Notes: generated from the sequence alone by a model not told the origin. Shown: positions 28,001 through 58,283, counted from the stretch's first letter. The stretch: 64,000 nt of DNA from Cetobacterium somerae (GCF_022430525.1 NZ_CP092519.1:1056454-1120453), one strand, 5' to 3'. Numbers and translations are program-made.

Positions 28001-31000
28001 TTTTATGGATCTTTTACTAACAGTGCAACAGCTGATGGTATTACATCTACAGCTACAACATCACCAAAAGACCCATTTTTAAGAATTTCTAAATCTTCAA
28101 CAAATACAAGTTACATACCTGGAGAAACAATTGAATATTCAATTGTTGTTGAAAACATAGGTAGTGGTTATGCAAATAACGCTCAAATAATTGATAGTTT
28201 AAACAACGTTGTCGACGGAGCTAAAAATAAAGCTTTTTCATCTTGGACAATTACAGGAACACCAAAGGGATATGGAACAACAATTGGTAATATAAGTGAT
28301 AATAATGATCTAAATACTACAGTTGATATAGCTCCTGGAGGAAGTATTACTTATAATATTGTAGCTCAATTAAATAAAAATTTAACAGGAATAATTACAA
28401 ACGAAGTTCAGGTGTATGATCCTCAAAATGGAAATATCAGCACTGCTTCAGCTAGTGAGGATAATGCAAATGAAGATGGGACTATTTTTATTAGAAAAAC
28501 TACAAACATACCATCTATAATACCCACAGAAGATTTTACTTATATAATAGATGTTTTAAACAACTCTAAAAATCCAATAAAAAATATAAGAATAGTTGAT
28601 GACTTAAATAACATTATTGGTAATTTAGCTAATGAGAATGGAACTTCAACAACAGATATTACAGGTCCTGCTTTTACATCTTGGAAAATTTTCAAAGGTG
28701 GAGTATTAATAAGTACTGGAACCAATGATAAATTAGATGATTTAATAAGTAATTTAAACCCACAACAAGGTGTGGAATATAAAATTATAGCAGTCCCTAA
28801 TCCCAAACTTTTGATTCAAAAATTAAAAAATACTGCAAATGTTTATAACGGCAATGATATCATAGCTAGCAGTTTTATAGAAAATAATGTTTTAGGGTCT
28901 ACCGGCGGAATAACTCGAAGTGTAACTCCAAGCAAATATATTCCTGGTGATACCTTAACATACATAATAAAAATATCTCCAAATAGCGTTGGCTATTTAA
29001 ATAATTTTTCTGTTAACGAAGATATAAGTAACTTAAATGTAAAACTTATGAATGGAACTCAAGGAAATGTCTTTTTCAATCCTACTACAGGAAAAAATGA
29101 ATTCAATGTAGAATTTATACAAAATGAATCAAAAGTTTCTACTGGTACAGTTCCTATACCTCTAGAGAGTATCAAGCCAAATACAAATTTAGTTGGTATT
29201 GTAGACATAGCTCAAGGAGACTATTTAGTTTATAAAATAACTGGAAAAATCAGACCAGATATTTTAGGTGATATAAATTACAAAGGATTAGTTACTACTT
29301 TTTATAGACAAAATCTCTCGATTACAAAGCAAGTTGTAGGAGGAAACTATTTTCCAGGTCAAACTTTAACTTATCTTTTAAGAGTTGAAAATAATAGTAA
29401 TGGAAACGCTGGACAAGTTGACTTAGTTGATAACATTGGAAATATAAAAGTTGAAAGTTCCAAAGGTGGAATTATCCCTGCTTTTGTTCCTGGAAGTATA
29501 AAAGTTGCTAACATTTCTATTGGTGGCTATGGAGCCTCAGCACCTATTCCTGCCGATTCTGAGAATATCAATGTAAAAATTGATGTTCCAACTGGAGGAT
29601 ATATTCAATATGAAATTTCAGGAACAGTTGCAGATACTGCCATTGGAAGAATAATAAACGAACTAGATGTGGATAGTGATACTGTTTCAGCTGGAACAAG
29701 TTCTCCACAAAATAGATTTTTAGTTACAAAAACAATGGATAGGTACTTAGATGTTGATGGGCTAACAGCTGTTAATGCTGGGTATGTTCCTGGAGGATAC
29801 ATTCAATACACAGTAACTATTACAAATCAAAATGCAGGTATAATAAATAATTATCCTATAAAAGATTTAATAGGTGATATAAACACAACTTTAGCTACTG
29901 GTGGAGTGGGGAAAGCTTTTGAGTCATGGACTATTACTGCTGAAAAAGATACCTCTAATGCTACAGATTTTGGTATTTTTCAAAATAATCAAAATCTAGA
30001 TACAACAGTAGATATAGGACCTAATGGATTTATAAAATATACTATTTTAGCTAAAGTAAATCCTCTAGCTGTTGGAAACTTTTCCAACTCTGTAAATGTT
30101 AACGGTGTTATAAGAACTTCTCAAACAGCTCAAATGGCACCTGAAGTAATTTTACACACAAAGAAAGCATTTGATTCTACAGGAACTAAAGAAATAACAA
30201 ATTATGCACCTGGTGATACTATTGTTTATAAAATAGAAATTCAAAACGTTGGAAAAGGAACGGCTTATGGAAAAAGTTATTTCGACACATTGTCATCTAT
30301 AATGGCAAACGAAGCTGGAAGTGGAAGTAATAAGGTTAATCCATTTGGAAACAAATGGACAATTAACACTGAAAAATCTGGTGATATAACTTTAATAGGA
30401 GCAACTCTTCCTCAAAACAATGAAAATATCTCAATTAATAACATGATTATTTCTCAAAATGGTAGTGTTGTATTTACAATAAAAACAACAGTTGGAGATA
30501 AAATATTTGGTGATATTTTTAATACATCAACTTATGGACAAGATTCTAAAACTGCTGTACTAAAGCCATATCCAGGAGTTATATCAACAACTAATATAAT
30601 CAAAACTTTAAATGGAAATACTTTTACAGGACAGGCATATAAACCAGGAGATGCTATTACTTACGAAATAACAATTAGCAATACAGGTAGAGGTATTTTA
30701 AATGATGTTAAAATAACAGATATTTTTACAAATATATTAACAGAAGAATCTGGAGCTTCTAGTTTAAATCAAGCTCTTCAAAATATCTCAATTAGTCCTC
30801 CTACAGTCAATACAGGAGAAAACTTTGTAGAACCGATACAAGGAGATAGTTCTATCCTGGTTAGAAAAAATGCAGATATACTACCTGGTCAAACTATCAC
30901 AATAATAACTTCTGCTACAATAAGCAAAAAAGCTCTAGGAATAATACCTGAAAATTCTTTAATGGTTAACGGCGTTGAAACAAAGTCAGCTACAATTAAT

Positions 31001-34000
31001 CCTGAACAAGCAGTTCTAACAGGTTCAAAAGCATTAATTATGCCGTCTAATAGAATCTATGTACCTGGAGATAATGTTCAATATAAGCTAACTTTAAAAA
31101 ATACAGGACTTGGTTATGGAAATAATGTAGTTCTTAAAGATTTAATAGGAGAAATTACAACAGAAATTGTAGGTGGCAAACAAGGTGCTGCATTTACCTC
31201 TTGGAATATCATCTACAACGGTGCTACAGGAAGCGAGTTCAGTAATTTCACATATTTAAATGGAGCTATCAATGGTCCAGCTGGGTTAAATACAACTATA
31301 GATATTGGTCCTGGAGTTGAAGTTTCTTTTAATATAGAAGCAACTTTATCTAAAAATATAGTTGGAAATGTTATCAATACAGCAACTTTAGGTGATAAAG
31401 TTTATACATCAGAAGCTATAACATTAAAGCCTGCTAATTTATCTGATATTGAAGTAACTAAAATAGTATCAAGCCCTACATATGTTCCTGATGGGAATGT
31501 TGGATTTCAAATAACCATAAAAAATAATTCAGATACAACAATAAACAATCTATTGATAAGTGATCTAATAAGTGGAATTAAAACAGAGCAAGCAGGCGGA
31601 ACATCTAATCAAGCCTTGAAATCCGGTTGGTCAATAACGACAAATATAATTGGAGATACTGAAAATTCTGCTATAAAAATCCCAAGATTTGGTGATTTAA
31701 TAAATAATGAAATTGATTTGGCAAAAGAAACTGAATTAACTATAAGTATTGCTGGAGTTGCAAGTTCAAAATCTTTAGGTAAAATTGAAAACTCTGCTAA
31801 GTGGAGCTATAATGGATCAAGCTCTGAAACTAATAAAGTAACTATCGAACCAGAAGTTGGAAGTTTAAAGATTTCAAAAAGTGCAAATCTTTCTAACTAC
31901 ATTCCAGGAGGAACAATAGAATATACATTAAACATTCAAAACATTGGATCTGGATATGTAAATAACGGTGTAATTACAGATAATTTATTAGATAAAACAG
32001 TGCAACTTGTTGATGGAACAACTGCTCCAGCTTTTACAAATATTAAATTAATTAATCAAACATCTGGTTCAAATACTATACTTGGACCTGTAGATTTAAG
32101 TAACGGATATTTACAAAATTCAGCTGATATTTATCCTGGTGACACTGTTAAAGTTGTTATTAGTGCTTTAGTAAATGAGAATGCTTATGGACCAATAACC
32201 AATACAGCAACAGCTGGATTATCCACAGGAAGCGTAACTTTAAAATCTGTAAAAGGTATTTTAACTGCCAACAAATCTGTAGATAAACTAAACTATTCTG
32301 ATGGAGATACTTTAACATATACAATAAACTTAATAAATTCAGGTCAAGGTTGGCTAAAAGATATATCAGTAATAGATGAGTTAAGTAAAATACAAACAGA
32401 ATTTGTTAATGGAACAACTACACTGGCTTTTGAAAACTCAACAGATTTAAATCAAACTATTAATATTGCACCAAATTCAACTAAAACACTAACAATTTCA
32501 GGAACACTAAAAACTGGAACAATAGGTGATATAGTAAATGCTGCCAATGTAGACGGAAGTTTTACAAACGAAGTTATTTCTACGCCTGTAATAAAAGATT
32601 TGAATCTAACGATAACTTCTGATGAATTTTATAAAACAGGGAATGGTATAGATCCAACTGAAAAAAATATCATAAATTATACTATAATTTTAAAAAATAA
32701 CGAACAGAGTGCTGCTGCTGCAGATATAATTTTAACTGATGATATTCTAAATATTTTCGTAGGAAGTAGTCTTAATAATACCATCAAGGCTTTTAGTAGT
32801 TATAAAATTACGGAATTCAATTACCCACAAGAAGACAACATTACCTCAAATATAGAATTGAATAAGGATATTACAGATAAATCAATTTTTGTTAGTGGTG
32901 CTTTAAAAAAAGATGGGGAAATAATAATAAAGTTAGAAGCTACATTAAATGAAACAGAATTTGAAAGTCCTATAGGAAACATCATAAATTTAGCTAAAGT
33001 TTCTCAAGGAACTAAAACAAATAGTGCAGAAACGATTGTACTACCTTCTGCACCAAAACCAAGTATTACAAAAATTATAAAAAGTATAGGTGGTAAAAAT
33101 TACAATATTGGAATGACATACTCTCCTGGAGACGAATTAGTTTATGAAATAAACATTACAAATACTGGAGATGGTTATTTAAACAATACCTCTTTAACAG
33201 ACAACATTAGTCTTTTAGTCACAGAATTAGCTGGTGATAATATCGGGAATGTTTTATCTCAATATAGTTGGAGCTATATTTCTAATAGTAAAAGAACTGT
33301 TATAGATAGTGGGGCTTTCATGCCTAACACACCTTTAAATACAATGATAACGATTGCTCCTAAATCAAATATTATTATAACTTTAACTGGGAAAATCTCT
33401 GATGAAAGTTTAGGAGTAATTCCTAGTAATCAAGTTAACCTTGGAATTTTAAACTCCAGAACGCCTACAATTTCTCCAGCTTTTGGAAAGTTAGAACTTA
33501 CTAAAAATTTAACTTCAGAAACTACATATATTCCTGGTGGATTACTTAGTTATGAAGTTAGAGTTGCAAATACTGGTCTTGGATACTTAAATAATATAAA
33601 AATTCAAGATTTAATAGGAAATATCCAAACTAACTCTGTTGGTGGAAAAATATCCTCAGCATTTTCAACTTGGTCAGTTTCTGGAAAACCTGATCCAATC
33701 GATGGAATTGTATATGTTGATAACTCTTATCCTAATACAGAAAATTTAGATGATACACTAGATATTGCTCCTGGCGTTGCAGCTGTCTTCACAGTTACAG
33801 GAGTTGTTAGCAATAATATTTATGGTGATATTACAAACAAAGCAGTTGCATCAAAAGATAACGAACAACAAACTGCTAGTGTAACGGCAACAAGTAAAAA
33901 AGCTACTGTTCTATTAACAAAGTCTTTTAATAACTCAACATATTCACCTGGAGGAAATTTAGGATTCACAATCACTATCGAAAATAATAGTCCAGCTATT

Positions 34001-37000
34001 GCAGCAGGATTAAATATTCAAGATTTAATTGAAAGTATGGTAGTAGATACAATTGATGGTAGTAAAAAATTTCCTTTTAAAAGTGGATACCAAATAAATA
34101 CCTCTATCATTGGTGATTCATCAAATACATCATTAAATATTCCAACATCAGGAAATATAAATGTTACTGGAGATTTAGCACCTAATACAACTGCTATTAT
34201 TAGTGTATCTGGTTTTGCAATAGATGATGCTGTTGGAGAAATTTCTAATACAGCTACATTAACTTACGATTCTAAATCTACAACTAAAAATGCAACAATA
34301 AAACCAAATACAGGAAATATTTTAATTACCAAAACATCACCAACAACATCGTTTACTCCAGGAAAAGAGTTAATTTATAACATTAAAGTTACTAATAATG
34401 GTGATGGTTATGCATCTGGAGTTCTTGTACAAGATAATCTTTCTTTAAGTGGTGCTTTTGATTTAGCAACAATTGTAGCAACACCAACGTGGGATAGTCT
34501 GTCTAAAGTTAATAACTTAAATATAAAAAATGGAATTTTAACAGCCATTGCAGATATACACCCTGGAGAAAGTATAAACATACAAATCCAAGCGCAAGTT
34601 TTAAAAACGAGAATCGAATCTATTGCTAATACTGCAGAGGCAACGTATTTAGGAACAACTTTTGATAATACAATAGTTTTAAATTCTGTGCCTGGAATAC
34701 TAACTATAAATAAAGATCAAAGTACAGGGTTTTATGAACCTGGAAATCAACTTTACTATACGTTAACTATTGAAAATACTGGTGACGGTTGGTTAAAAGG
34801 TGTCGGTATTTATGATGATCTTGCCGCTATTCAAACTCAAGTTTTAGGTGGAGGAATTGGAGCTGCTTTTCAAACCAACAGTATTGGTGCTTCAATCATA
34901 AGTCAAGGTATTAGTACACTAACTATTGATTCAAAAGAAATAACTCAAGGTAATTTAGTTGTCAAAGGAGATATCGCACCTAATACGACAGTTACTATAG
35001 TCATTGGTGGAAATACATCTGAAAATGCTATTGGAATAATACAAAATACAGCTAGAGCTGTTCAAAATAGCATTACATACAAAAGTGACACTGTAACTGC
35101 AATACAGCAAATCCCTAAATTAGAATTAAAAAAAATAGGAGATAACATTGAATATGTAGTTGGACAACCAATAACATACACTATAACTGTTGTCAATAAT
35201 ACTGTTAACAATGCTCGTGGTGTTCTTTTAAAAGACTTAATATCAAAAGTCACAGTATTAAATTCTAATGGAGAAACTGTACCAGCATTTAAACCAGGTT
35301 GGAAAGTAAGCTATACTTCTGATTCGTTGAGTACTGTTACAGGAGTTGTTGAAGATGGAAAAGATATAAATGTAGTTATGGATATTCATAATTTTGATAC
35401 AGTAACTTTTACAATAGAAGCAATCGTAATCGACAATGCTATTGGAGCTATTAAGAACACTGTATCTGCAAGTGAATTTGGAGAACCATACTCTTCATCT
35501 TTTGAATCTTTACCAAAAGAATCAGAGATAACTATAACTAAAACACCTCAAATAGAAAAATATGTTCCAGGAGAGCTATTAACTTACGATATAACAGTTT
35601 CCAATGTTGGTCTTGGATATGGAGATAATATAATAGTTCAAGATATATTAAGTGACATCGTAGTTACTACACCTACAGGAAATATAAATGCTTTTGACAT
35701 ATCATCAGCAACTATAAAAATAAAAAATATATCTCCAAATGTAGTTACAACAATAAAAAATGAAGTTCGAGGTGTTGATTTAGAAGATCTATTAGATATG
35801 CCTCCAAACTCATCTATAACTTATGAAGTAAGTGCAGTTGTTGCTCCTAATGCCATCGGTCCTATAAAAAATATAGCTTCTGCTGCAGGAGTTTCTGTAG
35901 AAAATATAATTTTATCTGAAAATTATAAAATAGAAGCTACAATGACCCAAGAGCAAACTACCTATATTCCAGGAAAAGAGGTTCAATTTGATTTAATCGT
36001 TGAAAATATTGGTTTAGGTTTTGCTTATAATATCGATGTTAAAGAGATCATAACAAATAGTTTAACTTTAGGTATTGCTGGAAATAATTTAAAAAGTTTT
36101 AATTCTTGGACAATATCAAAGTCAGAAAGCCAGAATTCAGTTATGAATAGAGCTAATGATTTATCAAATACTGATATTGATGAAGTTGTAAATATTCCTC
36201 CAAAAGGTATTATTACTTATAAAGTAACTGCAGTTGTAAATCCTGAATTATCTGGAGATATTATTGTAGAGTCAGATGTTTTAGACTCCTTAAATAAAGA
36301 GGAGTTTAAAAATAGTGTAACATTTACTCCACCAGAAGCAATTCTATCTTTATCTAAAATTTCAAACAAAGATAACTATGGAGATGAAGATGAGTTTATT
36401 ATTTATACCTTAGCTATTGAAAATAAAGGTATCGGAAATATAAGAGATATCCAAGTTACTGATTTGATTTCATCTTTAAAAGGAAAAAATGGTAACTCTT
36501 TATTTACAGATTGGCAAATAACAGTTAAAGAAACTGGAGTTATAGCAAATGAACATATTCCAGTTAAAGACAATGAGGATATAAATAATATTTTAAATTT
36601 AAGATCTGATGCACAAAATAAAGTAGTTTATACTATAACAGGAAAAATAAATAAAGGTATTGATGATACAATCACAAATACCTTCATTGCTAAAAACCCT
36701 TTAACAGGAAAAATTGATACAGCAAGTGTTACAAACTATATAAAGAAAATCCCTGATAATGAGGGCGAATTAAAAGTTATTAAAAGAGCCCTTAAAAGAG
36801 ATATAAAAATCGGTGAAGCAGTTGAATATGAAATCACTGTAGAAAATAATAATGAATCACGATTTATAAATGTAGTTTTAAAAGACCTTATTCCTCCTGG
36901 ATTTAAATATATAAAAGGTACTACAGAGTTAGTAGAATCTGGAACAGATGGTATTTTAAATACAAATGACGATTTAACTAGTATTTCAGAACCTGTTTTA

Positions 37001-40000
37001 GGCAATGGATTAAACTTTCCATCTATCACCATGGAACCTTTTACTAAGTTTAGAGTAAGATATCTATTAAAGCCTAGTATCGGTGTGACTTTTGGAAAAT
37101 ATAAAAATCAAGCCTACATGACTTTAAATGGAAATAAAATTTCTAATACAGCTACAGCTACAGTCTCTATAATAGGTGATAGTCTTTTAGATACGGCTTC
37201 TATTATAGGAAAAGTCTTCTTTGATGAAAATGGAGATGGTTATCAAAATGATGGCGAAAAAGGAATCCCTGGAGTAAGACTTATAACTCCCACTGGAGTC
37301 ATTGCAATTACAGATAGATTTGGTAGATACCACGTTCCTGATGAATGGGTTTATAGTAAAATGGGTGAAAACTATGAAATAAAATTAGATATAACAACTC
37401 TACCAGAAAATGTGGAGATTTTATCTGAAAATCCTCAAATAAAAAGAGTTACACCTCAAGGATTAACAAAATTTAATTTCAGTGTACGAGGAATTAAAGG
37501 TAAAAATATCGAAGATAAAAATAGAATCTATTTACCAGATGGAGCTATTTGGGTTATTAATGATTCCATTGAAATAGAACCTGAATTAATTTTAAATCTG
37601 CCTGAGAGAATAGTTGTAAAAAATGGAGAGCTAACAGAAGAATTAGATTTCACATTAAAAACAAATTATGGTGATTTCATAGAAAAGTATGAAATTGAAA
37701 TATATTCTCAAGAAGATTCAACTTTATCGTCACCAATTGGAGTTATTTCTGGAAAAAAAATCTATAATGATATGAAAGTAAATTGGAATTCTAAAAAAGA
37801 GGATCGATTAGATTTTAAAACTGGAAAACAACTAAAAGTAAGATTAAAAGTCTGGGATAAATTTGGAAACTTTGATGCTACAGAAATAGGATATATCGAT
37901 CTTGTCTCTAAAAAACCGATTGTGGATTTATTTGACTACGAGAGTAAAAATGAAATATTTCTGCAAATACAAAATATCCCACTAAATACAGGAATGGCTA
38001 GATTTACTGGAGATGGCTTAAAAGATATCGAAAAAGTTTACATTGGAGAAGATGAATACGATGTAGATCAAGATGCTTTCATTGCTTCAAAGTATATGCC
38101 AAGTGATAAATACAATATCCCTGTTAAAGTTGTTGACAAAAATGGAAATGAAAGTGAATATTCATTAAAAGTAACTTTACCAGAAACTTATTATATGTCT
38201 ACAGGAATAGCTGATTTTTCAATAGGAAGAAATTATATATCTGGAAATCAAGAGGTTTTAAATGTTGACAATCCATTTGGTCCAGAATATTTTGCAGATA
38301 ATATATATAATGAAGGTAGAATAGCTTACTACGGAAGAGGAAAATATAAAGATAAGTTTAGATTTGTAGCTCATATCGATACAAAGGCTAATAGTCTAAA
38401 CGAAATGTTTAATGACGTTTTAAAAAGAGATAAACAAACATTGTTCCAAAGAGTAGAAGATACAGATTATGCTTATTATCCAACATATGGAGATAAGTCA
38501 TATATTTATAGAGATGTTGAAACTGATGGAAAAATATACTTAAAATTACAATACGAAAAATCCTCTATTATGTGGGGAAATTATAATACTGGTTTTACAG
38601 GTTCTAAATATATGCAATATAATAGAAGTCTTTATGGAGCTAAAGGTAATTATACATCAAATGAAACTACTAAATTTGGAGATAATAAAAATAATATAAC
38701 TGCCTTTGCATCTGAACCAGACTCTTTATATGGTCATGATGAATTTTTAGGAACTGGTGGTAGTTTATATTTCCTTAAAAATGGAGATATTCTATCTGGA
38801 ACTGAGAAAGTTTGGATAAAAATTGTAAATAGTAATACAAGCTTAACCGAGAAAGTTATATATCTTCAAGAAGGAAAAGATTATGAGTTTGATCCTTATC
38901 AAGGTAGAATTATTTTAAATAAACCTCTAACTGGAGTTGCATCTAATATAAATGGGGATATAATTCAAGGGTCCTCTAGTGGAAATTATTATTCGTACCT
39001 AATTGTAGATTATGAATATATTCCAACGAACTCACAAAATATGAACGAAAAAGACTACGGACTTCGTGGTAAAACTTTTATTAATGATCATGTGGGTGTT
39101 GGAGGAACATACATAAAAGAAAATAAAGAAGGTAAAGGATATACTTTAACTGGTGGAGAGGTAATTTTAAAAGCTACTGAAAACTCATATTTAAAAGGAG
39201 AGATAAGTAGAAGTGAAGGAATTCAAAGTGATAATTCATTCTTATCATTTGATGGCGGTTTAAATTTTAAAAAAATAGGTAGTGATATTGAAAACATCTC
39301 TGGAAATGCCTATAATTTCAGTGGAGTTTTAAATTTTGCTGATTTAAATCCTGAAGTTTTCTCTCCTTATGGAAATGATATAAGAGCTTGGTATGAGAAA
39401 AAAGAATCAGGTTACTCTTTTGCTTCTGATTTAGGTGATAAAGAACTTGAAACTTACGGTAGTGAAATTAACTTCAGAAGTTCTGATAGAATGAAAGCAA
39501 AAATTAAATACGAAAGCATGGAGAAAAAAGACTATTTTAACTCTTTAATTGATAAAAAAGAAACTACAGGAATTCAATTAGAATATTTAATAACAGAAAG
39601 AATATCTGCAGGATTAGCTTTTAATCACGTTAAAGAGCTTGATCAAAATGAAATTGGATCAGGAGATTTAGTTGGAGCTAGAGTAGAATATGAAATTGAC
39701 GAAGATACAACAGTTTATACAGAGGGACAAATCACTGTAAATAAAAACAGTAACTATGAAACTAACAATATTATAACTTTTGGTGGAGAGAAATCTTTAA
39801 CTGAAAAGTTAACAGTAAATGGTAAAACTAGTTTTGGAACTAGAGGAAACTATACTGAAGTGGGTACTGATTATAACTTAACTGACGACTACACAGTGTA
39901 TCTTGGATATAGTATGGATGGAGAAGAGGATATCAATAAAATTACTGGAGGACAAAGAGCTCGTTTAAATGACAAGATTAACATCTATCAGGAAAACCAA

Positions 40001-40834
40001 TTTGTAAAAGAATCTGGAAGAAATGGAGTTATGCAATCTTATGGTGCTGACTATGAAATCTATGAAGATGTTACTTTTGGAGCATCTTTCCAACTTGGAA
40101 AAATTGAACTTCCTGATAACGAAGGTGAAAGTAAAAGAAAAGCAGTATCTCTATACTCAAGAATAGAAAAAGCTGATTTTATGTTAAAAAATAAAATTGA
40201 ATACAGAGAAGAAAAAGAGGATCAAAAGATTAGGCAATATTTAACAACAAATACTTTTAACTATGTTTATAGCGATGAATATACATTTGCTGGAAAGATA
40301 AATTTTGCTTTTACAGATGATATTGAAAATTATAAATTTATAGAAAGTAGTATCGGATTAGCTTATAGACCTGTTGAAAATGATAAACTAAACTTTTTAT
40401 CTAGGTATACTGTAATTTTAAATGAAGATCCTAATGATTCAGATAAATCAAAAGCTTATATTATAGAGTTTGAATCAATTTACTCTCTAACTGAAAGATG
40501 GGATTTAGGATTAAAAACAGCTTATCGAAAAGAGCAAGATACATATATTCGAGTTTCTGAAAACTCTATAGTTATAAATAATAATTTATACTTAATAGGA
40601 TTAAAAGCTAACTATACAATTTTAAATGATTGGGATATATATGGACAATACCATTGGTTAGTAGATGAAAAAGAAAGTGATATTGCTTCTGGAGCTATTG
40701 TAGGAATTTACAAAAATATCCATCGAAATTTAAAGTTTGGAGGAGGTTACAACTTCTCTGGATTTAGTGATAACTTAGGTGTAGACGATTACAAAGCTCA
40801 CGGATGGTTTATAAATGCAATTGGAAGGTTCTAA
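25040..40834 (+). CDS. Giant DUF11-repeat surface protein with C-terminal outer-membrane beta-barrel
   Basis: 5264 residues in one unbroken frame. Residues 1-21 are a signal peptide (KRGLFFLIFFILLSKIMLA). From about 25 to 4045 run some 29 repeats of about 134 residues. Each opens with a pattern such as ITKTP....YxPGGxIxYxIxVxNxGxGY and closes with APGGSITYxI and a TSNTA-like end, the DUF11/TIGR01451 immunoglobulin-like fold. The last repeat is the most canonical (LKDLIPPGFKYIKGTTEL). At about 4054-4105 comes an SdrD-B-like unit with a calcium-type loop (FFDENGDGYQNDGEKG), then Ig-like linker to about 4380. The remainder, about 880 residues, is alternating beta strands (GTGGSLYFLKNGD, LQEGKDYEFDPYQGRIILN) ending in Phe, like outer-membrane barrels. 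Strong AGGAGGG site. Likely a cell-surface stalk or adhesin; function inferred only. Confidence 0.9.
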   Translation: MRKRGLFFLIFFILLSKIMLAIDFNLTRISPQGEYDNGDGVEYQLTLTNNTATGIGGTLSFPLANLTSTLDGGGEGIIFNNLQNSSKTNGKYTYPGSFSFTGNLEATGIFIDAGGSITYTVKGTINPNINGTIDAIANFVSTSGEKITQENTMTRVFYDLEVNKIPTLPYYEKGGTVSYNILVENIGKAPIKSIDIEDILDNSAFVSSSISATSTGIGTNPGIYSPTGNLMAKGAYIAVGGNITYTITGQLNDSFIGTLNNSVSLTSRKKTQTVDANPINLAKYSYTFKKTTLNPDKQYSPNGAVAYRLLITNTSKDIPITNMSLSDYFSQIYSVDANGNQVLAFDTTRITVIPSTGTNSSSAGNISSNTDLNIKNISIAPGDYVSYTVRTFVNPNVVGEIKNTATISDRNGNTLTSEDSGLISKPANIEISKTPLSNDVYTPGAPIKYLITIKNTGQGIGYNLNVIDNITNIKSSLANSSGVSSQDIEGNPVSTWNIIASLGTESTNSTSNLLQNGGFLNNVNLNDQNVILYPGEEINYTVTIITKDTSIGTISNTAEINGQTSTAIYNPAEVITTGNESITIVKTPNQSEYTPGGTISYNIIVRNLDTKFANNINITDSLSKITALNTNGENSAVVKSWSLNFISKTGNGTTQGEFNYGVENPGTQDLNIVADLGPNGEVIYKLIIKVNPDIVGKIYDDNPSGNVVENGNGISMSPYKLELQKEVNETEYTPGQNVIYTVTISNTGNGTAVNIPVQDIFSDIKTTLVTGVQGQAYTKTVVTGVIYDSKGNIVTSGPDKTGLVNELIDKDLNVKAIISPGNSIVYTIIATINPLADQRIINTALVDGELTSDRGIVTRTTNVSIKKSVNKNSYPNNLDSNGNIISEENETIIYTIEVENSSASGIAMNVPVQDSISTIEAELLSGNQALVFQPGWKIDTQLIGEGTSISGDLVEDGKDINTRVNIAPGGKVVFTITGNINNNGTQIFYGSFTNSATADGITSTATTSPKDPFLRISKSSTNTSYIPGETIEYSIVVENIGSGYANNAQIIDSLNNVVDGAKNKAFSSWTITGTPKGYGTTIGNISDNNDLNTTVDIAPGGSITYNIVAQLNKNLTGIITNEVQVYDPQNGNISTASASEDNANEDGTIFIRKTTNIPSIIPTEDFTYIIDVLNNSKNPIKNIRIVDDLNNIIGNLANENGTSTTDITGPAFTSWKIFKGGVLISTGTNDKLDDLISNLNPQQGVEYKIIAVPNPKLLIQKLKNTANVYNGNDIIASSFIENNVLGSTGGITRSVTPSKYIPGDTLTYIIKISPNSVGYLNNFSVNEDISNLNVKLMNGTQGNVFFNPTTGKNEFNVEFIQNESKVSTGTVPIPLESIKPNTNLVGIVDIAQGDYLVYKITGKIRPDILGDINYKGLVTTFYRQNLSITKQVVGGNYFPGQTLTYLLRVENNSNGNAGQVDLVDNIGNIKVESSKGGIIPAFVPGSIKVANISIGGYGASAPIPADSENINVKIDVPTGGYIQYEISGTVADTAIGRIINELDVDSDTVSAGTSSPQNRFLVTKTMDRYLDVDGLTAVNAGYVPGGYIQYTVTITNQNAGIINNYPIKDLIGDINTTLATGGVGKAFESWTITAEKDTSNATDFGIFQNNQNLDTTVDIGPNGFIKYTILAKVNPLAVGNFSNSVNVNGVIRTSQTAQMAPEVILHTKKAFDSTGTKEITNYAPGDTIVYKIEIQNVGKGTAYGKSYFDTLSSIMANEAGSGSNKVNPFGNKWTINTEKSGDITLIGATLPQNNENISINNMIISQNGSVVFTIKTTVGDKIFGDIFNTSTYGQDSKTAVLKPYPGVISTTNIIKTLNGNTFTGQAYKPGDAITYEITISNTGRGILNDVKITDIFTNILTEESGASSLNQALQNISISPPTVNTGENFVEPIQGDSSILVRKNADILPGQTITIITSATISKKALGIIPENSLMVNGVETKSATINPEQAVLTGSKALIMPSNRIYVPGDNVQYKLTLKNTGLGYGNNVVLKDLIGEITTEIVGGKQGAAFTSWNIIYNGATGSEFSNFTYLNGAINGPAGLNTTIDIGPGVEVSFNIEATLSKNIVGNVINTATLGDKVYTSEAITLKPANLSDIEVTKIVSSPTYVPDGNVGFQITIKNNSDTTINNLLISDLISGIKTEQAGGTSNQALKSGWSITTNIIGDTENSAIKIPRFGDLINNEIDLAKETELTISIAGVASSKSLGKIENSAKWSYNGSSSETNKVTIEPEVGSLKISKSANLSNYIPGGTIEYTLNIQNIGSGYVNNGVITDNLLDKTVQLVDGTTAPAFTNIKLINQTSGSNTILGPVDLSNGYLQNSADIYPGDTVKVVISALVNENAYGPITNTATAGLSTGSVTLKSVKGILTANKSVDKLNYSDGDTLTYTINLINSGQGWLKDISVIDELSKIQTEFVNGTTTLAFENSTDLNQTINIAPNSTKTLTISGTLKTGTIGDIVNAANVDGSFTNEVISTPVIKDLNLTITSDEFYKTGNGIDPTEKNIINYTIILKNNEQSAAAADIILTDDILNIFVGSSLNNTIKAFSSYKITEFNYPQEDNITSNIELNKDITDKSIFVSGALKKDGEIIIKLEATLNETEFESPIGNIINLAKVSQGTKTNSAETIVLPSAPKPSITKIIKSIGGKNYNIGMTYSPGDELVYEINITNTGDGYLNNTSLTDNISLLVTELAGDNIGNVLSQYSWSYISNSKRTVIDSGAFMPNTPLNTMITIAPKSNIIITLTGKISDESLGVIPSNQVNLGILNSRTPTISPAFGKLELTKNLTSETTYIPGGLLSYEVRVANTGLGYLNNIKIQDLIGNIQTNSVGGKISSAFSTWSVSGKPDPIDGIVYVDNSYPNTENLDDTLDIAPGVAAVFTVTGVVSNNIYGDITNKAVASKDNEQQTASVTATSKKATVLLTKSFNNSTYSPGGNLGFTITIENNSPAIAAGLNIQDLIESMVVDTIDGSKKFPFKSGYQINTSIIGDSSNTSLNIPTSGNINVTGDLAPNTTAIISVSGFAIDDAVGEISNTATLTYDSKSTTKNATIKPNTGNILITKTSPTTSFTPGKELIYNIKVTNNGDGYASGVLVQDNLSLSGAFDLATIVATPTWDSLSKVNNLNIKNGILTAIADIHPGESINIQIQAQVLKTRIESIANTAEATYLGTTFDNTIVLNSVPGILTINKDQSTGFYEPGNQLYYTLTIENTGDGWLKGVGIYDDLAAIQTQVLGGGIGAAFQTNSIGASIISQGISTLTIDSKEITQGNLVVKGDIAPNTTVTIVIGGNTSENAIGIIQNTARAVQNSITYKSDTVTAIQQIPKLELKKIGDNIEYVVGQPITYTITVVNNTVNNARGVLLKDLISKVTVLNSNGETVPAFKPGWKVSYTSDSLSTVTGVVEDGKDINVVMDIHNFDTVTFTIEAIVIDNAIGAIKNTVSASEFGEPYSSSFESLPKESEITITKTPQIEKYVPGELLTYDITVSNVGLGYGDNIIVQDILSDIVVTTPTGNINAFDISSATIKIKNISPNVVTTIKNEVRGVDLEDLLDMPPNSSITYEVSAVVAPNAIGPIKNIASAAGVSVENIILSENYKIEATMTQEQTTYIPGKEVQFDLIVENIGLGFAYNIDVKEIITNSLTLGIAGNNLKSFNSWTISKSESQNSVMNRANDLSNTDIDEVVNIPPKGIITYKVTAVVNPELSGDIIVESDVLDSLNKEEFKNSVTFTPPEAILSLSKISNKDNYGDEDEFIIYTLAIENKGIGNIRDIQVTDLISSLKGKNGNSLFTDWQITVKETGVIANEHIPVKDNEDINNILNLRSDAQNKVVYTITGKINKGIDDTITNTFIAKNPLTGKIDTASVTNYIKKIPDNEGELKVIKRALKRDIKIGEAVEYEITVENNNESRFINVVLKDLIPPGFKYIKGTTELVESGTDGILNTNDDLTSISEPVLGNGLNFPSITMEPFTKFRVRYLLKPSIGVTFGKYKNQAYMTLNGNKISNTATATVSIIGDSLLDTASIIGKVFFDENGDGYQNDGEKGIPGVRLITPTGVIAITDRFGRYHVPDEWVYSKMGENYEIKLDITTLPENVEILSENPQIKRVTPQGLTKFNFSVRGIKGKNIEDKNRIYLPDGAIWVINDSIEIEPELILNLPERIVVKNGELTEELDFTLKTNYGDFIEKYEIEIYSQEDSTLSSPIGVISGKKIYNDMKVNWNSKKEDRLDFKTGKQLKVRLKVWDKFGNFDATEIGYIDLVSKKPIVDLFDYESKNEIFLQIQNIPLNTGMARFTGDGLKDIEKVYIGEDEYDVDQDAFIASKYMPSDKYNIPVKVVDKNGNESEYSLKVTLPETYYMSTGIADFSIGRNYISGNQEVLNVDNPFGPEYFADNIYNEGRIAYYGRGKYKDKFRFVAHIDTKANSLNEMFNDVLKRDKQTLFQRVEDTDYAYYPTYGDKSYIYRDVETDGKIYLKLQYEKSSIMWGNYNTGFTGSKYMQYNRSLYGAKGNYTSNETTKFGDNKNNITAFASEPDSLYGHDEFLGTGGSLYFLKNGDILSGTEKVWIKIVNSNTSLTEKVIYLQEGKDYEFDPYQGRIILNKPLTGVASNINGDIIQGSSSGNYYSYLIVDYEYIPTNSQNMNEKDYGLRGKTFINDHVGVGGTYIKENKEGKGYTLTGGEVILKATENSYLKGEISRSEGIQSDNSFLSFDGGLNFKKIGSDIENISGNAYNFSGVLNFADLNPEVFSPYGNDIRAWYEKKESGYSFASDLGDKELETYGSEINFRSSDRMKAKIKYESMEKKDYFNSLIDKKETTGIQLEYLITERISAGLAFNHVKELDQNEIGSGDLVGARVEYEIDEDTTVYTEGQITVNKNSNYETNNIITFGGEKSLTEKLTVNGKTSFGTRGNYTEVGTDYNLTDDYTVYLGYSMDGEEDINKITGGQRARLNDKINIYQENQFVKESGRNGVMQSYGADYEIYEDVTFGASFQLGKIELPDNEGESKRKAVSLYSRIEKADFMLKNKIEYREEKEDQKIRQYLTTNTFNYVYSDEYTFAGKINFAFTDDIENYKFIESSIGLAYRPVENDKLNFLSRYTVILNEDPNDSDKSKAYIIEFESIYSLTERWDLGLKTAYRKEQDTYIRVSENSIVINNNLYLIGLKANYTILNDWDIYGQYHWLVDEKESDIASGAIVGIYKNIHRNLKFGGGYNFSGFSDNLGVDDYKAHGWFINAIGRF

Positions 40835-52266: not shown

Positions 52267-52364
52267 ATGTATTTTAATCTTTTATTTAAACAAAACTAAA
52301 TACTATACTCATATTTTTTAAAAACTTCTATATACTTAGAAATTTCTGATAATAAGTAATTTAT

Positions 52365-52500
52365 TTAATCGCCCCATGATTCCTCATTATATATATCAAA
52401 TTCCACACTTTTCATAATCATACTTGATTTATTATCCTCTAAATTTCTCCATTCTAATTTAGAACCAATTTGATCTTCTATTTTAATTTTTCTGCTAAAT
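52365..52500 (-). pseudogene. DUF4268-type C-terminal fragment
   Basis: In a frame different from the overlapping nuclease gene, the minus strand reads KIKIEDQIGSKLEWRNLED then NKSSMIMKSVEFDIYNEES, WGD and a stop at 52365. The IE..IG..LEW..L.DKKAS.I.......DI......W pattern is that of the end of DUF4268 proteins, which occur in restriction and defence loci. Only about 44 codons remain. It suggests that the present 3' end of the macro-fused gene was pasted over, or shifted against, an older gene. Confidence 0.5.
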
Positions 52501-54271
52501 ACTTTTTATATATTCGTTCTTGCTCTGTATCTCCACATATAAAATAAATTTTTTCGATACTTCCTGGTGTAATAGAATTTAAAACAGTTTCTATAGCTAT
52601 TTTGGCTCCTTCTTCAAGAGGCCATTTGTATATTCCCATACCTATACAAGGAATTGCTATTGATTTAAATTTATTTTCTTCAACTATTTTCATTATATTT
52701 TTATAGCATCTTTTTAAGTTTTCATATCTATCAGTTTCTTCTAAATAATATTTAGGCGCTACAGTGTGTACTATCTTTTTAGCTGGAAGATTATATCCAT
52801 CTGTTAAAATTGCCTCTCCAACTTCTAATTTAGAATATTTTGAACACTCTACTTCTAATTCTTTCCCAGCGCCTGGAAAGATAGCACCACAAAGTCCAGA
52901 ACCTCTCATCATATTACTATTAGCCGAATTTATTATAATATCTACCTCTAATAAAGTTATGTCCCGTACTTGGATTTCTATTTTTGGTTCTAAACTTATT
53001 TTTGTATTTTTTAAATAATTCTCATACATTTTTTCTGTAGATAATTTAAATAATTTGATTTTTTTTCCTTGGAAGATTTCAAAAGAAACTTCTCCTATAT
53101 AACTATGTTGTGTTTCTTCTGTTGGAAACAAAAAAGCATTATAATATCTAGTTTTTTCAATTCCTACTTTTTTATAGTATGCTCTATATGATTCTTCATA
53201 TAAAAATTGTTTACCTATATCTCCTATTCCAGGAGCGTTATTTTTTAGTTTTCCTTTTTCATCAAATTCTGTTTCATAGTATTTAGCATCATATATATGT
53301 AAATCATTATTTTCTTCAAATACAATATCTGGAATAAAAGAACTACTGTAGTTATCTTCTTCATTATTAATAGATTTCCAATTTGGTTTAGGAATATTTT
53401 TTCTAAGAGTAGAATCATGTCCTAAAACATTTTGACAAACATTTTCCCAAATTGAATGGTACGATTTAGTTCCATAGATATTAATATCTTCGTAAATACT
53501 ATGTGCTTTTTCTTTTAAAATACTTCTCATTAATTTTAAAAGATTAATCTTTCTTTCTGAAAAATTTTCTCTTAATTCTAAATCTATTTTAAAAATTTGA
53601 TATTCTTCATCTCCTATTAAATCTCCATCAAAATGAAAATCAAATTGAAAGCCATCTAATCCAAATTTTCTAAACTCTTCAAAATATGCTGCTGCATCTG
53701 TTAATAATTTTTTTTGGATACTTCTAATGTAATTTTCTTGTTCCTCTTCTATATCGTGAGTGTAATAGTTCAGATATATTGGATTTTTTAGAGTATTAAA
53801 GTGATTATCTAGCTCACCTATTGTTTTATTCCAATCGATCTCTCCATCACCACAAAGTGTATGAATGTGTCTTTCATTTTCATATAATCCATTTTCTATA
53901 AAATCATCAATTAAACTTTTATATAATGAAAATAAATTTAAATATTCTTCCTCTTCATCACAATCTTTTTCCAATAATGAACTTTTAGATTTTCTATATT
54001 TTTCAAATACTTTAAAAATAGTTTTTATATAATTTCTATGCTCCACTTCTCTTCCAATATAATTTTCATAAGGATCTACTTTATATTTTGGAAAAACTAT
54101 AACTATACAATCTGTTAAAGCAATCATTCCTACAAATCTAAAACTTATACTTTGATTATCTCTGACAACTACATTACTTTCCATTAGTTTATTTAATATC
54201 TCACTATTTTCAAACCGGAAACATTCATCTAAAGCATATTTTTTTAACTCTTTAAAATACAATATTTTCAT
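52478..54271 (-). CDS. McrC/LlaJI-type restriction subunit fused to a C-terminal macro domain
   Basis: 597 residues. Residues 1-420 match the LlaJI/McrC nuclease subunit: an N-terminal domain, CGDGEIDWNKTIGE near 142 (the GxIxWxxTI motif of this group), and the PD-(D/E)xK core FIPDIVFEENNDLHIYDAKYY at about 312-332 (Pro-Asp then Asp-Ala-Lys). From about 425 to 590 there is a macro domain: VDIIINSANSNMMRGSGLCG and IAIPCIGMGIYKWPLE, which form the ADP-ribose pocket. It should cut DNA when loaded by the McrB-like GTPase/ATPase directly upstream (6-bp gap). A macro domain on this subunit is unusual; it may bind or remove ADP-ribose. No methyltransferase is linked, pointing to a modification-dependent (type IV-like) system. 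Confidence 0.82.
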   Translation of the reverse strand: MKILYFKELKKYALDECFRFENSEILNKLMESNVVVRDNQSISFRFVGMIALTDCIVIVFPKYKVDPYENYIGREVEHRNYIKTIFKVFEKYRKSKSSLLEKDCDEEEEYLNLFSLYKSLIDDFIENGLYENERHIHTLCGDGEIDWNKTIGELDNHFNTLKNPIYLNYYTHDIEEEQENYIRSIQKKLLTDAAAYFEEFRKFGLDGFQFDFHFDGDLIGDEEYQIFKIDLELRENFSERKINLLKLMRSILKEKAHSIYEDINIYGTKSYHSIWENVCQNVLGHDSTLRKNIPKPNWKSINNEEDNYSSSFIPDIVFEENNDLHIYDAKYYETEFDEKGKLKNNAPGIGDIGKQFLYEESYRAYYKKVGIEKTRYYNAFLFPTEETQHSYIGEVSFEIFQGKKIKLFKLSTEKMYENYLKNTKISLEPKIEIQVRDITLLEVDIIINSANSNMMRGSGLCGAIFPGAGKELEVECSKYSKLEVGEAILTDGYNLPAKKIVHTVAPKYYLEETDRYENLKRCYKNIMKIVEENKFKSIAIPCIGMGIYKWPLEEGAKIAIETVLNSITPGSIEKIYFICGDTEQERIYKKYLAEKLK

Positions 54272-54277
54272 AGTAAC

Positions 54278-56440
54278 CTATTCCCATTCTTGTGTATTTA
54301 ATTTAGTTAAAAACTCATCCGAATAAATACAATTTCCTATTTTATATTCTTTTACCAATTGAGAAAAACTTAATATATCTTCTGTAAACAATTTTCTTCT
54401 AACACTTATTTTATGCTTTAAAACATCATCAAATATGTACATTAAAAGTTTATTAAGATATGGTGATTCCTCTATCCAGTAAAAATCTTCATCTCCTCCT
54501 GCATCTTGACCGAATTGTGATGGATTTATAAAAAATGGAGCAATTAATCTGTCTTCATTTATTCCATTTTTAAGTAAAAAATTATTTAAATTTTCTCTAA
54601 AGTCATTCCAATAAACACCTTTAGAAACTATTTTTATGTTTTCATTGTTTGTAGAAAAATTTATATCAACAAGATATTTTTTTCCTTCATCTCCAAAATT
54701 TTCGGCATTATCATCAAGTCCTATATACTCGAAGTTCCATCTTCTTTTAAAAGCTGTATCAAGAGGATAAACTCCTTGATCTGCATTGTTCATTGTTGCC
54801 CAAATATATAGATTGCTAGGAAGTGACAAGCCTTTTCCAAAATACTCTTGATATTGACTATCATCTTCAAATTGTTCTCTTAAATATTTTTCTACTTCTG
54901 TTGATATAGCTATTGGATACTCACTTTCGCCACTTTTATTTCTATCTAAAAGCTGAAATATATTCCCAAAAACTCTATCAGCTTTAGCTCTGTTTATTTC
55001 TTCAATTATTAAAAGAAAATTATGTTCTGGATTTTGAAAAGCTTTAACCAAACTTGTCATTAATGGTCCTGGAACATATTTATATATAATATTTTCTGAA
55101 TTATTTTCACTAGGAACTGGTTTATATGTTCCCACAAATTGACCATATGTATAACCATCATAGAATGTAACTCTCTCTACTAATTTTAAAATTTCTTCTA
55201 CAGTTTCTAAACTTTTAGAATTATCATTTTCTAAGTCAAATAGTGGTTCAAAAATTTTCAAATAATCTCCTGTTACTTCTTGGATAGTTGGACGAATTGA
55301 TACTCCTACATAGTCATTTGATAAATTTTTTAATTTCCAATCAACCTTTACAATTTTTCCATCATCACTTTCTTTTGTTACAACTCCTAAAGCCTTTATT
55401 CTAACTGTAGCTGTTGGAATTCCATTTGGTCTTGTTACAAAAGCAGATTTAATAGCAATATAATCCCCTACTTTTATTCCTTTTACCTTATCTATAAACT
55501 TATCATCCCAACCATTTTCCCAATATCCATTTTCTACAAAATCATCTAATTTATTTTCAGGACCCCAAAATGCCCCTACTCCCCAATATCTTCTTTTATT
55601 TACTTCATCATTTTCATCTTCAGAATCAACAGGTACTTCTTTTATTAACTTTACCTCTTTAAATTTTTCTTTACTCTCTTTTTCTAACATATAACTTTTT
55701 CCAGTTCCAGGTGCTCCATATACAATTCTTTGATATTCCATTTTAATCTCCCCATTTTCAATTAGTTCAATATTGTCTTCAATATCTAAATTTTTTATAA
55801 AATTTTCTCCTGTTTCTATAAACTTTTTAAAAGCTATGAAACTATTAAAAGCAAATGCATAATCTTTTAACTTTCCAATTTTTTGTTCTAACTTTTCTTT
55901 TAAAACTGTTAATTCTTCAGAATTTAATAAAAAGAAAAATATTGTATCTTCTATTAAACTATTTTCAACTAGCTTTTCAATATTCTTATTTAATCTATAG
56001 ATACTTGCATCCACAGTTATTTTATCTAATTTTGTATTTTTTCTAGTAACATAAACATCTTCTAACCAAACTCTATATTTTCTTAACACATTATCTTTTA
56101 AATATAATGTCGGTGTTTGTTGTTTTGCTGTTATAAACGAAATATCTGAAGATAAATATTTTTTTAAAATATTTTCTTTTATTAAAGTGCCATTAAAATA
56201 TTTTCTTCCAAGATTTTCGCCATTATATTCTAAATTTTTTTCATCTTTTATTTCATGCCAATCATAACATTCAAACATCCCAACAATTTTTGAATTTGAA
56301 ACGGCAAAAACATATTTTAAACTAGAAAGTTTATCTAATGAAACTCTCCAAGATTTTCTTGCTATTTTGTATACTTCTTCTTGTGTCATTCCCTCTCTAT
56401 AGCTTTGGTTAACAATAACTAGTAAACATTCTTCTTTCAT
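54278..56440 (-). CDS. McrB-like AAA+ NTPase with inserted EVE/PUA-like domain
   Basis: 720 residues, the motor of the restriction module. Residues 1-120 are a small domain (YREGMTQEEVYKIARKSWRVS) that I recall from other defence proteins. Walker A is YGAPGTGKSY near 243. Between it and the rest of the AAA domain lies an insertion of about 100 residues (WGVGAFWGPENKLDDFVENGYW, KVGDYIAIKSAF) of EVE/PUA-like character, a fold that reads modified bases. YTYGQFVGTYKPV follows, then Walker B LLIIEEINRAKADRVFGN near 478 and the McrB sensor TMNNADQGVYPLDTAFKRRW near 556. It is first in the operon behind a promoter at 56481-56509. GTP versus ATP use is undecided. Confidence 0.85.
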   Translation of the reverse strand: MKEECLLVIVNQSYREGMTQEEVYKIARKSWRVSLDKLSSLKYVFAVSNSKIVGMFECYDWHEIKDEKNLEYNGENLGRKYFNGTLIKENILKKYLSSDISFITAKQQTPTLYLKDNVLRKYRVWLEDVYVTRKNTKLDKITVDASIYRLNKNIEKLVENSLIEDTIFFFLLNSEELTVLKEKLEQKIGKLKDYAFAFNSFIAFKKFIETGENFIKNLDIEDNIELIENGEIKMEYQRIVYGAPGTGKSYMLEKESKEKFKEVKLIKEVPVDSEDENDEVNKRRYWGVGAFWGPENKLDDFVENGYWENGWDDKFIDKVKGIKVGDYIAIKSAFVTRPNGIPTATVRIKALGVVTKESDDGKIVKVDWKLKNLSNDYVGVSIRPTIQEVTGDYLKIFEPLFDLENDNSKSLETVEEILKLVERVTFYDGYTYGQFVGTYKPVPSENNSENIIYKYVPGPLMTSLVKAFQNPEHNFLLIIEEINRAKADRVFGNIFQLLDRNKSGESEYPIAISTEVEKYLREQFEDDSQYQEYFGKGLSLPSNLYIWATMNNADQGVYPLDTAFKRRWNFEYIGLDDNAENFGDEGKKYLVDINFSTNNENIKIVSKGVYWNDFRENLNNFLLKNGINEDRLIAPFFINPSQFGQDAGGDEDFYWIEESPYLNKLLMYIFDDVLKHKISVRRKLFTEDILSFSQLVKEYKIGNCIYSDEFLTKLNTQEWE

Positions 56441-56480
56441 CTTTACCCACCTAAATATTTTTTACTTAAACTCTAATTTG

Positions 56481-56866: not shown

Positions 56867-57181
56867 TTATTTTAGTTTTATGTATTTTGATTTAAGTCTT
56901 TCTAAAAAGTTTGTATCTTTTTCTTCTTCAACACTTAATACTGTCAAATCTATAGGTAAATTATTCATTTTTTTTAAAATAAAAGATATTGTATCTAAGT
57001 CGTTTATCAAATTATTTGAATATTTCGAGTATATTAATAATATGTCAACATCATTAGGAGTTTTAGAAGTATCTAAAATAGATCCGTATAAATAAATATT
57101 ATCAAATGAATTAAACATTTCAATATATTCGTTTATTAAATCAATTACATTACATCTTACTAATATATCCATAAAAATCAT
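56867..57181 (-). CDS. Small nucleotidyltransferase-fold protein
   Basis: 104 residues (or 101 from the second ATG at 57172). The MNT/pol-beta nucleotidyltransferase signature is complete at the catalytic strand: YLYGSILDTSKTPNDVDILLIY, with Gly33-Ser34 and the metal-binding Asp44-x-Asp46. The third acidic residue may be in LPIDLTVLSVEEE (Asp near 78). Size and sequence fit the minimal nucleotidyltransferases of the MntA kind, some of which AMPylate a partner toxin. The gene overlaps the 3' end of the HNH gene by 23-32 bp, so it is translationally coupled to it. The partner and nucleotide are unknown. Confidence 0.82.
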   Translation of the reverse strand: MIFMDILVRCNVIDLINEYIEMFNSFDNIYLYGSILDTSKTPNDVDILLIYSKYSNNLINDLDTISFILKKMNNLPIDLTVLSVEEEKDTNFLERLKSKYIKLK

Positions 57182-58283
57182 CCATTGTTAATAAAGTTAC
57201 ACCTAAAATCTTTGAAAAGTTATTTGCTTCCATTGAAATACAACTTTTTCCATTCCAGTTGTGAAGATTAACAACAATACTATCAATTTCAGGTGAAAGA
57301 TTTATTAATGCCATTTTACTCAAACAGTATTCATAAACAAAGATTATTTTAACTTTATTTACTAAAATTTCTCTCAAGTTATTATAATTTAAAAATTCAA
57401 ATCCTAACCCTCTTGAAACAATATATTTTAAAGCAAAGTTAAGGCTTTCTAATCTTACCTTAGCACTTCTAAAACATCCATATTCATAATAAAGTTGTCT
57501 TAATCTAGGTGTATCATTTAAAAAAATTCTTTCTCCATCAGCGAATTCTATATAAGGTTTATCATTTCCTATAGAAATATTTATAACTTTACTCTCATTA
57601 TTTAATTTTGAAATTAGAATTTCTAAAGATTCAACTGAAGGAAGAAATGAACCTTCTATTGGTTCTATTCCAAACATAGAATTAATTTCCTTAGGAAACA
57701 AAATGTATCTACTTTTTTCTTTATCCAAACGAGTAGCTTTAAATTCATCAATATGAGTCAAAAATATTCTTACTATTTCTAAATTTGAAAAAGCTTTGCT
57801 TTCATGACTTTGAAATAGATTAAAGTTATTTTCTAAAAGTTTTTTTAATTTTTCATTATTTATCAATATTTTATTCTCAAATTTATTCCATAATTCTTTT
57901 TGATCATTTAAATAATATTCTTCGTATATAGTTTTATTTTCTAAAAGTAAAGGAAATACTGCAATTTTTAGTTCATTAAAAGTTTTATATTTTTCACCAA
58001 AAATTTTCTCAAATTCATCTTTTCTATTTTGCTTCCATCCTTTAACTTCATCAGATGAAAATGCAAAGTTTTTATCAAAATCTGTGTGACAATTAGGACA
58101 TAAAATAATTAAGTTTTCAAATGAATTATCTTTTGTATCGCAAAAAGGAATTATGTGTGCTCTTTCGATTATATCACCACCATCTACAAATAATTCTTTT
58201 CTACAATTTGGATTCATACATCTTCCCATCGATTCAGCATACAGTCTTCTTTGTATATCTTCCTTTGTTTTTGGTCTTGCCAT
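57150..58283 (-). CDS. HNH endonuclease with a large unassigned C-terminal region
   Basis: 377 residues. The N-terminal zinc-bound HNH domain is clear: Cys22 and Cys27 (CMNPNC), His43 in ERAHIIPF, Asn57 in FENLIILC, then Cys62, Cys65 and His66 (CPNCH). Residues from about 90 to 377 are mixed alpha/beta (SIGNDKPYIEFADGERIFLNDTP, IVVNLHNWNGKSCISMEANNFSKILG) and match no family I can name. It follows the YgjP-type gene by 22 bp in the type I restriction operon and overlaps the nucleotidyltransferase gene. This pairing looks like a small toxin-antitoxin or abortive-infection module carried within the operon; that is inference. Confidence 0.82.
   Translation of the reverse strand: MARPKTKEDIQRRLYAESMGRCMNPNCRKELFVDGGDIIERAHIIPFCDTKDNSFENLIILCPNCHTDFDKNFAFSSDEVKGWKQNRKDEFEKIFGEKYKTFNELKIAVFPLLLENKTIYEEYYLNDQKELWNKFENKILINNEKLKKLLENNFNLFQSHESKAFSNLEIVRIFLTHIDEFKATRLDKEKSRYILFPKEINSMFGIEPIEGSFLPSVESLEILISKLNNESKVINISIGNDKPYIEFADGERIFLNDTPRLRQLYYEYGCFRSAKVRLESLNFALKYIVSRGLGFEFLNYNNLREILVNKVKIIFVYEYCLSKMALINLSPEIDSIVVNLHNWNGKSCISMEANNFSKILGVTLLTMDDFYGYISKM

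Follow-up and report, generated by a model that had tools for sequence, protein, structure and literature searches.

A LlaJI/McrC-type nuclease gene of Cetobacterium somerae bearing a captured MacroD-class macro domain

Considered here is a 64,000-nucleotide stretch of Cetobacterium somerae DNA (GCF_022430525.1, NZ_CP092519.1:1056454-1120453), which as a whole is ‘the window’, with positions counted from its first letter, and particularly a pair of minus-strand genes found at 52478-56440. One of these genes encodes a McrB-like motor and the other a LlaJI/McrC-type nuclease which ends, within the same open reading frame (ORF), in a macro domain of the MacroD class. As a variant of McrBC/LlaJI restriction, with a captured MacroD-class domain, the pair is new, and it is apparently confined to one lineage. 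As to how that domain came to be there, we have high confidence in a recent, in-frame replacement of the interval between the 3' end of the LlaJI gene and a downstream DUF4268 gene. An earlier note on this DNA had described these two ORFs as a McrB/LlaJI-like pair, i.e., an AAA+ McrB-like motor with an insert after Walker A and a PD-(D/E)xK partner ending in a macro domain, and Pfam as well as McrB structures agree with that description. What the note did not see is that the macro domain is a lineage-specific replacement.

The fused gene and its origin

The nuclease ORF (52478-54271, minus strand) is 597 amino acids in length. Its LlaJI/McrC-type PD-(D/E)xK part consists of residues 1-424 (53000-54271), with Pfam's RE_LlaJI matching residues 46-412 (E 1.5e-55), the nuclease motif P314-D315...D328-A-K330 conserved, and a nonsynonymous-to-synonymous rate ratio (dN/dS) of 0.185 relative to a sister locus, L002; the PD-(D/E)xK region (305-435) is poorly modelled by AlphaFold2. 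The macro domain follows in frame as residues 425-597 (52478-52999; core residues 430-595), with Pfam's Macro matching residues 447-559 (E 2.6e-33).

L002, from a Cetobacterium metagenome-assembled genome (MAG; same locus as G010), possesses the same McrB and LlaJI pair, at 79.6% DNA identity over window positions 53000-56462. There the nuclease ends, without a macro domain, at 437 amino acids and is followed by a 141-amino acid DUF4268 gene. Where L002 has 350 bp, the window has about 508 bp of macro sequence, and positions 52309-52491, beginning at the macro stop, match the 3' half of the L002 DUF4268 gene at 91% identity. This decayed half-gene (52297-52491, minus strand), with a nonsense codon inside, has that 91% identity to intact copies both in L002 and on contig C5 of the source genome (G000). 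The left junction is at 52992-53006 (minus strand), homology with L002 stopping at about 53000, and the join falls five residues past Y419, beyond which no LlaJI residue is invariant. The right junction (52478-52500, minus strand) has AAAAATTA / AAATAGAAG in common with DUF4268 genes, with a one-base indel, and the macro stop codon, TAG, sits inside such common sequence.

Because the remnant is still 91% identical while synonymous divergence (dS) between the window and L002 loci is about 0.67, it would appear either that the DUF4268 gene was broken recently or that this segment has been swapped at a later date than its surroundings. Copies of DUF4268 follow various genes in the genus, including on contig C5 of the source genome, which makes recombination at this gene a plausible way for the fusion to have arisen.

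The earlier note had proposed a search by profiles for this nuclease-macro architecture. The fusion is confirmed in the window, with no second case among genomes, viral contigs, plasmids or phages. That is, LlaJI is present in 15 of 98 Fusobacteriota genomes, with the fused frame in the source genome only, and no LlaJI-macro fusion was found in the other 388 of 389 broadly sampled genomes, in 49 viral-contig LlaJI loci, among plasmids (where no record covers 80% of the query), or among the phages searched. No LlaJI turned up in surveys built around other phyla, nor any other macro gene in the 12 genomes of the genus. One phage record, MT835668, offered an apparent fusion (81% query coverage) which was rejected, as the alignment overruns the LlaJI stop; L064 12984-14429 is a 481-amino acid LlaJI without macro. 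Nor was the exact left-junction DNA found in viral contigs, or similar plasmid DNA in PLSDB. No donor of the macro domain was found, the best identity being 42%, with none closer in viral contigs or phages. A maximum-likelihood tree puts the fused macro domain with jumbo-phage macros L161/L207 (97/76), on a long branch, a grouping to which no weight is given.

Various side observations can be made on these gene families. A 644-amino acid LlaJI nuclease (L065 5655-7589) has a C-terminal extension of about 160 amino acids that is not a macro domain. The DUF4268 gene is portable, following different genes in Cetobacterium (L002 7388-8316; G000 contig C5 6583-8773, which is L273; L274; L275), and each time the 3' side of the DUF4268 gene carries, whole or in part, a GC-rich repeat of about 500 bp (46% GC). 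This repeat has no Rfam match; five of the genus's 12 genomes have it in low copy number, and the window locus lacks it.

The motor, its insert and the probable target

The McrB-like gene (54278-56440, minus strand; 720 amino acids) lies 6 nucleotides from the nuclease gene and encodes an AAA+, GTPase-type motor. It matches Pfam's AAA_5 as well as McrB structure chains (E 1e-10). Its fold matches, using VIA, 9a5m_B (the YdjA-YdiS model) at Z 29.3 and the McrB proteins of T. gammatolerans and E. coli at Z 17-19, matches which span residues 231-719, mostly via the AAA core. The layout is of an N-terminal domain (about 1-125), Walker A (242-249), an insert of about 150 residues (about 263-412; window 55205-55654, minus strand), Walker B (about 475-482), and MNxxD (550-554).

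Identity to the L002 protein is 48% over the insert versus 72-82% for the remaining protein, which would be as expected for a specificity module. The homologous insert of another locus, L058, matches Pfam's EVE at E 0.0016, below the Pfam cut-off, comparison by hhalign is weak, and the predicted model of the insert is beta-rich, though of low confidence. From these we infer a probable EVE/PUA-like reader of modified bases. Inserts in McrB GTPase domains, likely encoding specificity modules, are already documented (PMC11090510), as is the pairing of EVE with McrB (PMC7641849).

The earlier note had pointed to the lack of a linked methylase, and indeed no C5 methyltransferase (PF00145) match exists anywhere in the source genome. 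A C5 methylase adjoins McrB at 41 of the 49 viral-contig LlaJI loci, and most of the other stretches are truncated near McrB. The missing methylase, along with the fast-changing, EVE-like insert, suggests a type IV target, i.e., modified DNA. Modified phage DNA, which the note had raised as something the pair may attack, accordingly remains a plausible target; a LlaJI pair of this sort, without methylase and with an EVE-like insert, probably acts in a type IV-like manner. As an aside, another McrB-LlaJI pair (L057 6354-11668; G005 contig C2) occurs twice, in inverted orientation, close to the end of its contig and with a truncated nuclease, and may be an assembly palindrome.

The macro domain and what it may do

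NCBIfam deacetylase models, of MacroD/YmdB type, match the macro domain at E 5e-41 versus E 1.7e-5 and 8e-5 for DarG models, and by these matches the domain is MacroD/YmdB-like rather than DarG-like. AlphaFold2 models residues 440-597, approximately, with a predicted local distance difference test (pLDDT) score mostly above 90, and the resulting fold matches the O. iheyensis MacroD, 5l9k, at VIA Z 28.6 (1.6 Å over 180 residues), with MacroD/YmdB relatives generally at Z 26-29 and 29-38% identity. Kept in the ADP-ribose site are D437, N448/N451 along with the GSG loop, and G-I-Y548, and because these residues mostly are kept, binding of ADP-ribose is likely. Both ADP-ribose motifs thus are present, as the note had claimed. 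The structural check which it had proposed, against macro enzymes acting on DNA ADP-ribosylation, turned out in part differently: the fold is that of MacroD and the site is mostly kept, but the domain is not DarG-like. An ADP-ribosylglycohydrolase fused to a macro domain occurs in a same-family genome (L013 517-2022), with an HTVAP/GMGAY motif close to that of the window macro.

In what we view as the best explanation of the pair, the N-terminal domain and EVE-like insert would let the McrB ring read a base modification in DNA entering the cell, the ring would be powered by GTP hydrolysis, and the LlaJI subunit would cut. Less securely, the macro domain, located almost without linker beside the nuclease, could act as an ADP-ribose reader or weak eraser. 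It would bind or strip, that is, ADP-ribose which phage ADP-ribosyltransferases (ARTs) had placed on the complex or on nearby proteins, such that restriction stays active. A published analysis proposes that ADP-ribose erasers lacking an ART, which occur alongside vWA chaperones and restriction-fold genes, act against viral ADP-ribosylation (PMC9503650), and of the precedents for a macro domain being of use to a restriction nuclease this is the strongest. By that analogy a shield or eraser role ranks first among functional roles, though taken singly it is rather unlikely. Somewhat better than even, in our estimation, is the chance that the macro domain has a selected role of some kind, while the explanation taken whole is tentative, falling a little short of even.

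Various points weigh against that explanation. As the fusion is both unique, to one genome, and recent, conservation provides no support for joint function. The window's own insert gives no EVE match with Pfam, that of L058 being only below cut-off. Cys461 stands where MacroD has its catalytic Asp, and Phe465 replaces the His after it, so hydrolysis by this macro domain may be weak; of the Asn/Asp/Tyr set proposed for catalysis in OiMacroD (PMC5413906), Asn451 and Tyr548 are present. In OiMacroD itself the D40A change lowers kcat/Km from 2412 to 331 M-1 s-1, about 7-fold, without abolishing activity (PMC5413906). In addition, the fused macro domain falls, by tree, outside of the Macro-HTH clade found next to McrBC, so that link, taken up below, is one of analogy only.

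Alternatively, the macro domain could be doing nothing for restriction. Illegitimate recombination may have put a complete macro gene behind LlaJI, with read-through harmless and the nuclease unchanged, and this we regard as a real possibility if not an expected one. Consistent with it are the recentness of the event, with the DUF4268 remnant so little diverged, the uniqueness of the fusion among all loci searched, and a recombination-prone site, i.e., with DUF4268 genes following several unrelated genes in the genus. The domain, however, is complete and confidently folded, runs for 173 codons without a stop despite the DNA being AT-rich, and retains most ligand residues, and the join comes just after the last invariant nuclease residue. 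It was noted earlier, too, that the macro part might prove to be a recent frameshift or assembly join. Recent the join is, but it looks like natural recombination, with the domain intact, rather than assembly error. That only a single assembly shows the fusion would fit with an artefact of assembly or binning which brought a foreign macro gene into this locus. The fusion nevertheless reads as one uninterrupted frame within a single contig, and the sequences to either side of the macro segment belong to one locus, of the L002 type and in the order seen there, such that two precise breakpoints inside that contig would be needed. A simple assembly join therefore is unlikely, and as the GC content at third codon positions of the macro domain (GC3, 0.145) also fits the host, artefact of either sort is highly improbable.

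Two further alternatives involve ADP-ribose more directly. In one, the nuclease would be switched on or off, as in TM-macro Thoeris, by a ligand of the macro domain, either free ADP-ribose or a TIR-type product formed upon infection. Macro domains of ThsA do bind ADP-ribose (ADPR) and imidazole adenine dinucleotide (IAD), oligomerising on binding (PMC11204291), and here too binding residues are kept while the catalytic Asp is lost. But no NAD-consuming gene is recognised in the operon, the source genome gives no TIR_2 match (other TIR families not having been searched), and the macro domain resembles MacroD in both sequence and fold, while identity between ThsA macro domains and MacroD proteins is only about 12% (PMC11204291); such gating is improbable. 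The other alternative has the macro domain guiding the nuclease to ADP-ribosylated DNA or RNA, or else cleaning such nucleic acid, in the manner of macrodomains that act on it, i.e., DarG and, as reported, SCO6735 (PMC9411070). A DarG or DNA-ADP-ribosylation identity was rejected, with E values of roughly 1e-4 to 1e-5 for DarG models versus 5e-41 for MacroD-type and with no DarT match in the source genome, and action on nucleic acid is very unlikely. Nothing points, that is, to the note's suggestion that the nuclease cuts or strips ADP-ribosylated DNA, given a MacroD-like domain, no DarT, and a unique and recent fusion. With neither DarT nor TIR_2 matched, there is no sign of a coupled toxin or of a Thoeris-type signal.

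As separate genes, macro and McrBC pair independently in two IMG/VR contigs, L145 (1-5446) and L147 (1-6073). These have the order McrB-McrC(PF10117)-Macro-HTH-VWA, with McrC and macro genes touching, overlapping or nearly so. The Macro-HTH/VWA module adjoins other genes in L141, L142, L146 and L151, in the last instance with an ADP-ribosylglycohydrolase beside it, and because its neighbours vary, adjacency to McrBC may reflect instead an insertion hot spot. A related macro/VWA pair is found 3.2 kb behind LlaJI in L059. A literature search found no paper combining McrBC, McrC and ‘macro domain’. A bolder claim, of McrBC-type nuclease activity being switched or targeted by ADP-ribose, whether as free signal or phage-made ADP-ribosylation, via one-step domain capture and as paralleled by McrBC-Macro operons, is unlikely.

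If the macro domain does have a role, then a restriction enzyme would be tied to ADP-ribose chemistry, joining two defence themes. Should it have none, the locus still gives a clean before-and-after view of a defence nuclease capturing a domain, with the macro-less sister locus and the broken downstream gene showing what was replaced. The McrB-McrC-Macro-VWA neighbourhoods provide a separate, recurrent set for testing the ADP-ribose link.

Genomic setting and known systems

The source genome, of the Fusobacteriota, is 2.97 Mb in 7 contigs and 98.8% complete, its nearest relatives including a Cetobacterium MAG. Upstream of the McrB-like gene, on the same strand, are a nucleotidyltransferase/HNH pair, a YgjP-type metallopeptidase gene, and then a type I restriction system which has its own HsdM, located outside of the window. 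The small nucleotidyltransferase (MNT-like) and HNH nuclease genes overlap (56867-58283) and separate the McrB pair from the type I system. Elsewhere, at 25040-40834, is one very large ORF of 5264 amino acids.

Among known systems, LlaJI and BsuMI (YdiR/YdiS/YdjA) have in common with the window pair a McrB-like GTPase and PD-(D/E)xK partner, RE_LlaJI, and best fold matches to 9a5m; the window pair differs in lacking a cognate C5 methyltransferase, in the macro domain of its nuclease, and in its GTPase-domain insert. Type IV McrBC (E. coli, T. gammatolerans, EVE-McrB) is similar in motor fold, nuclease motif, absence of a methylase from the pair, and the putative EVE-like insert, but the window nuclease is of the LlaJI branch, not PF10117 McrC, and is fused to a macro domain. 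With MacroD/YmdB hydrolases (OiMacroD, E. coli YmdB, human MACROD2) the window macro shares fold, ADP-ribose site and the Asn/Tyr residues, and differs in having Cys for the catalytic Asp, Phe for the following His, and a nuclease to which it is fused. TM-macro Thoeris (ThsA) likewise has a macro domain in a phage-defence effector, but that is a membrane effector with a TIR partner, for which the source genome gives no TIR_2 match. The McrB-McrC-Macro(HTH)-VWA operons and ART-less erasers, lastly, resemble the window pair in having a macro gene directly behind McrC, with VWA nearby and, in L151, an ADP-ribosylglycohydrolase; these differ in consisting of separate genes, in macro clade, and in their PF10117-type McrC.

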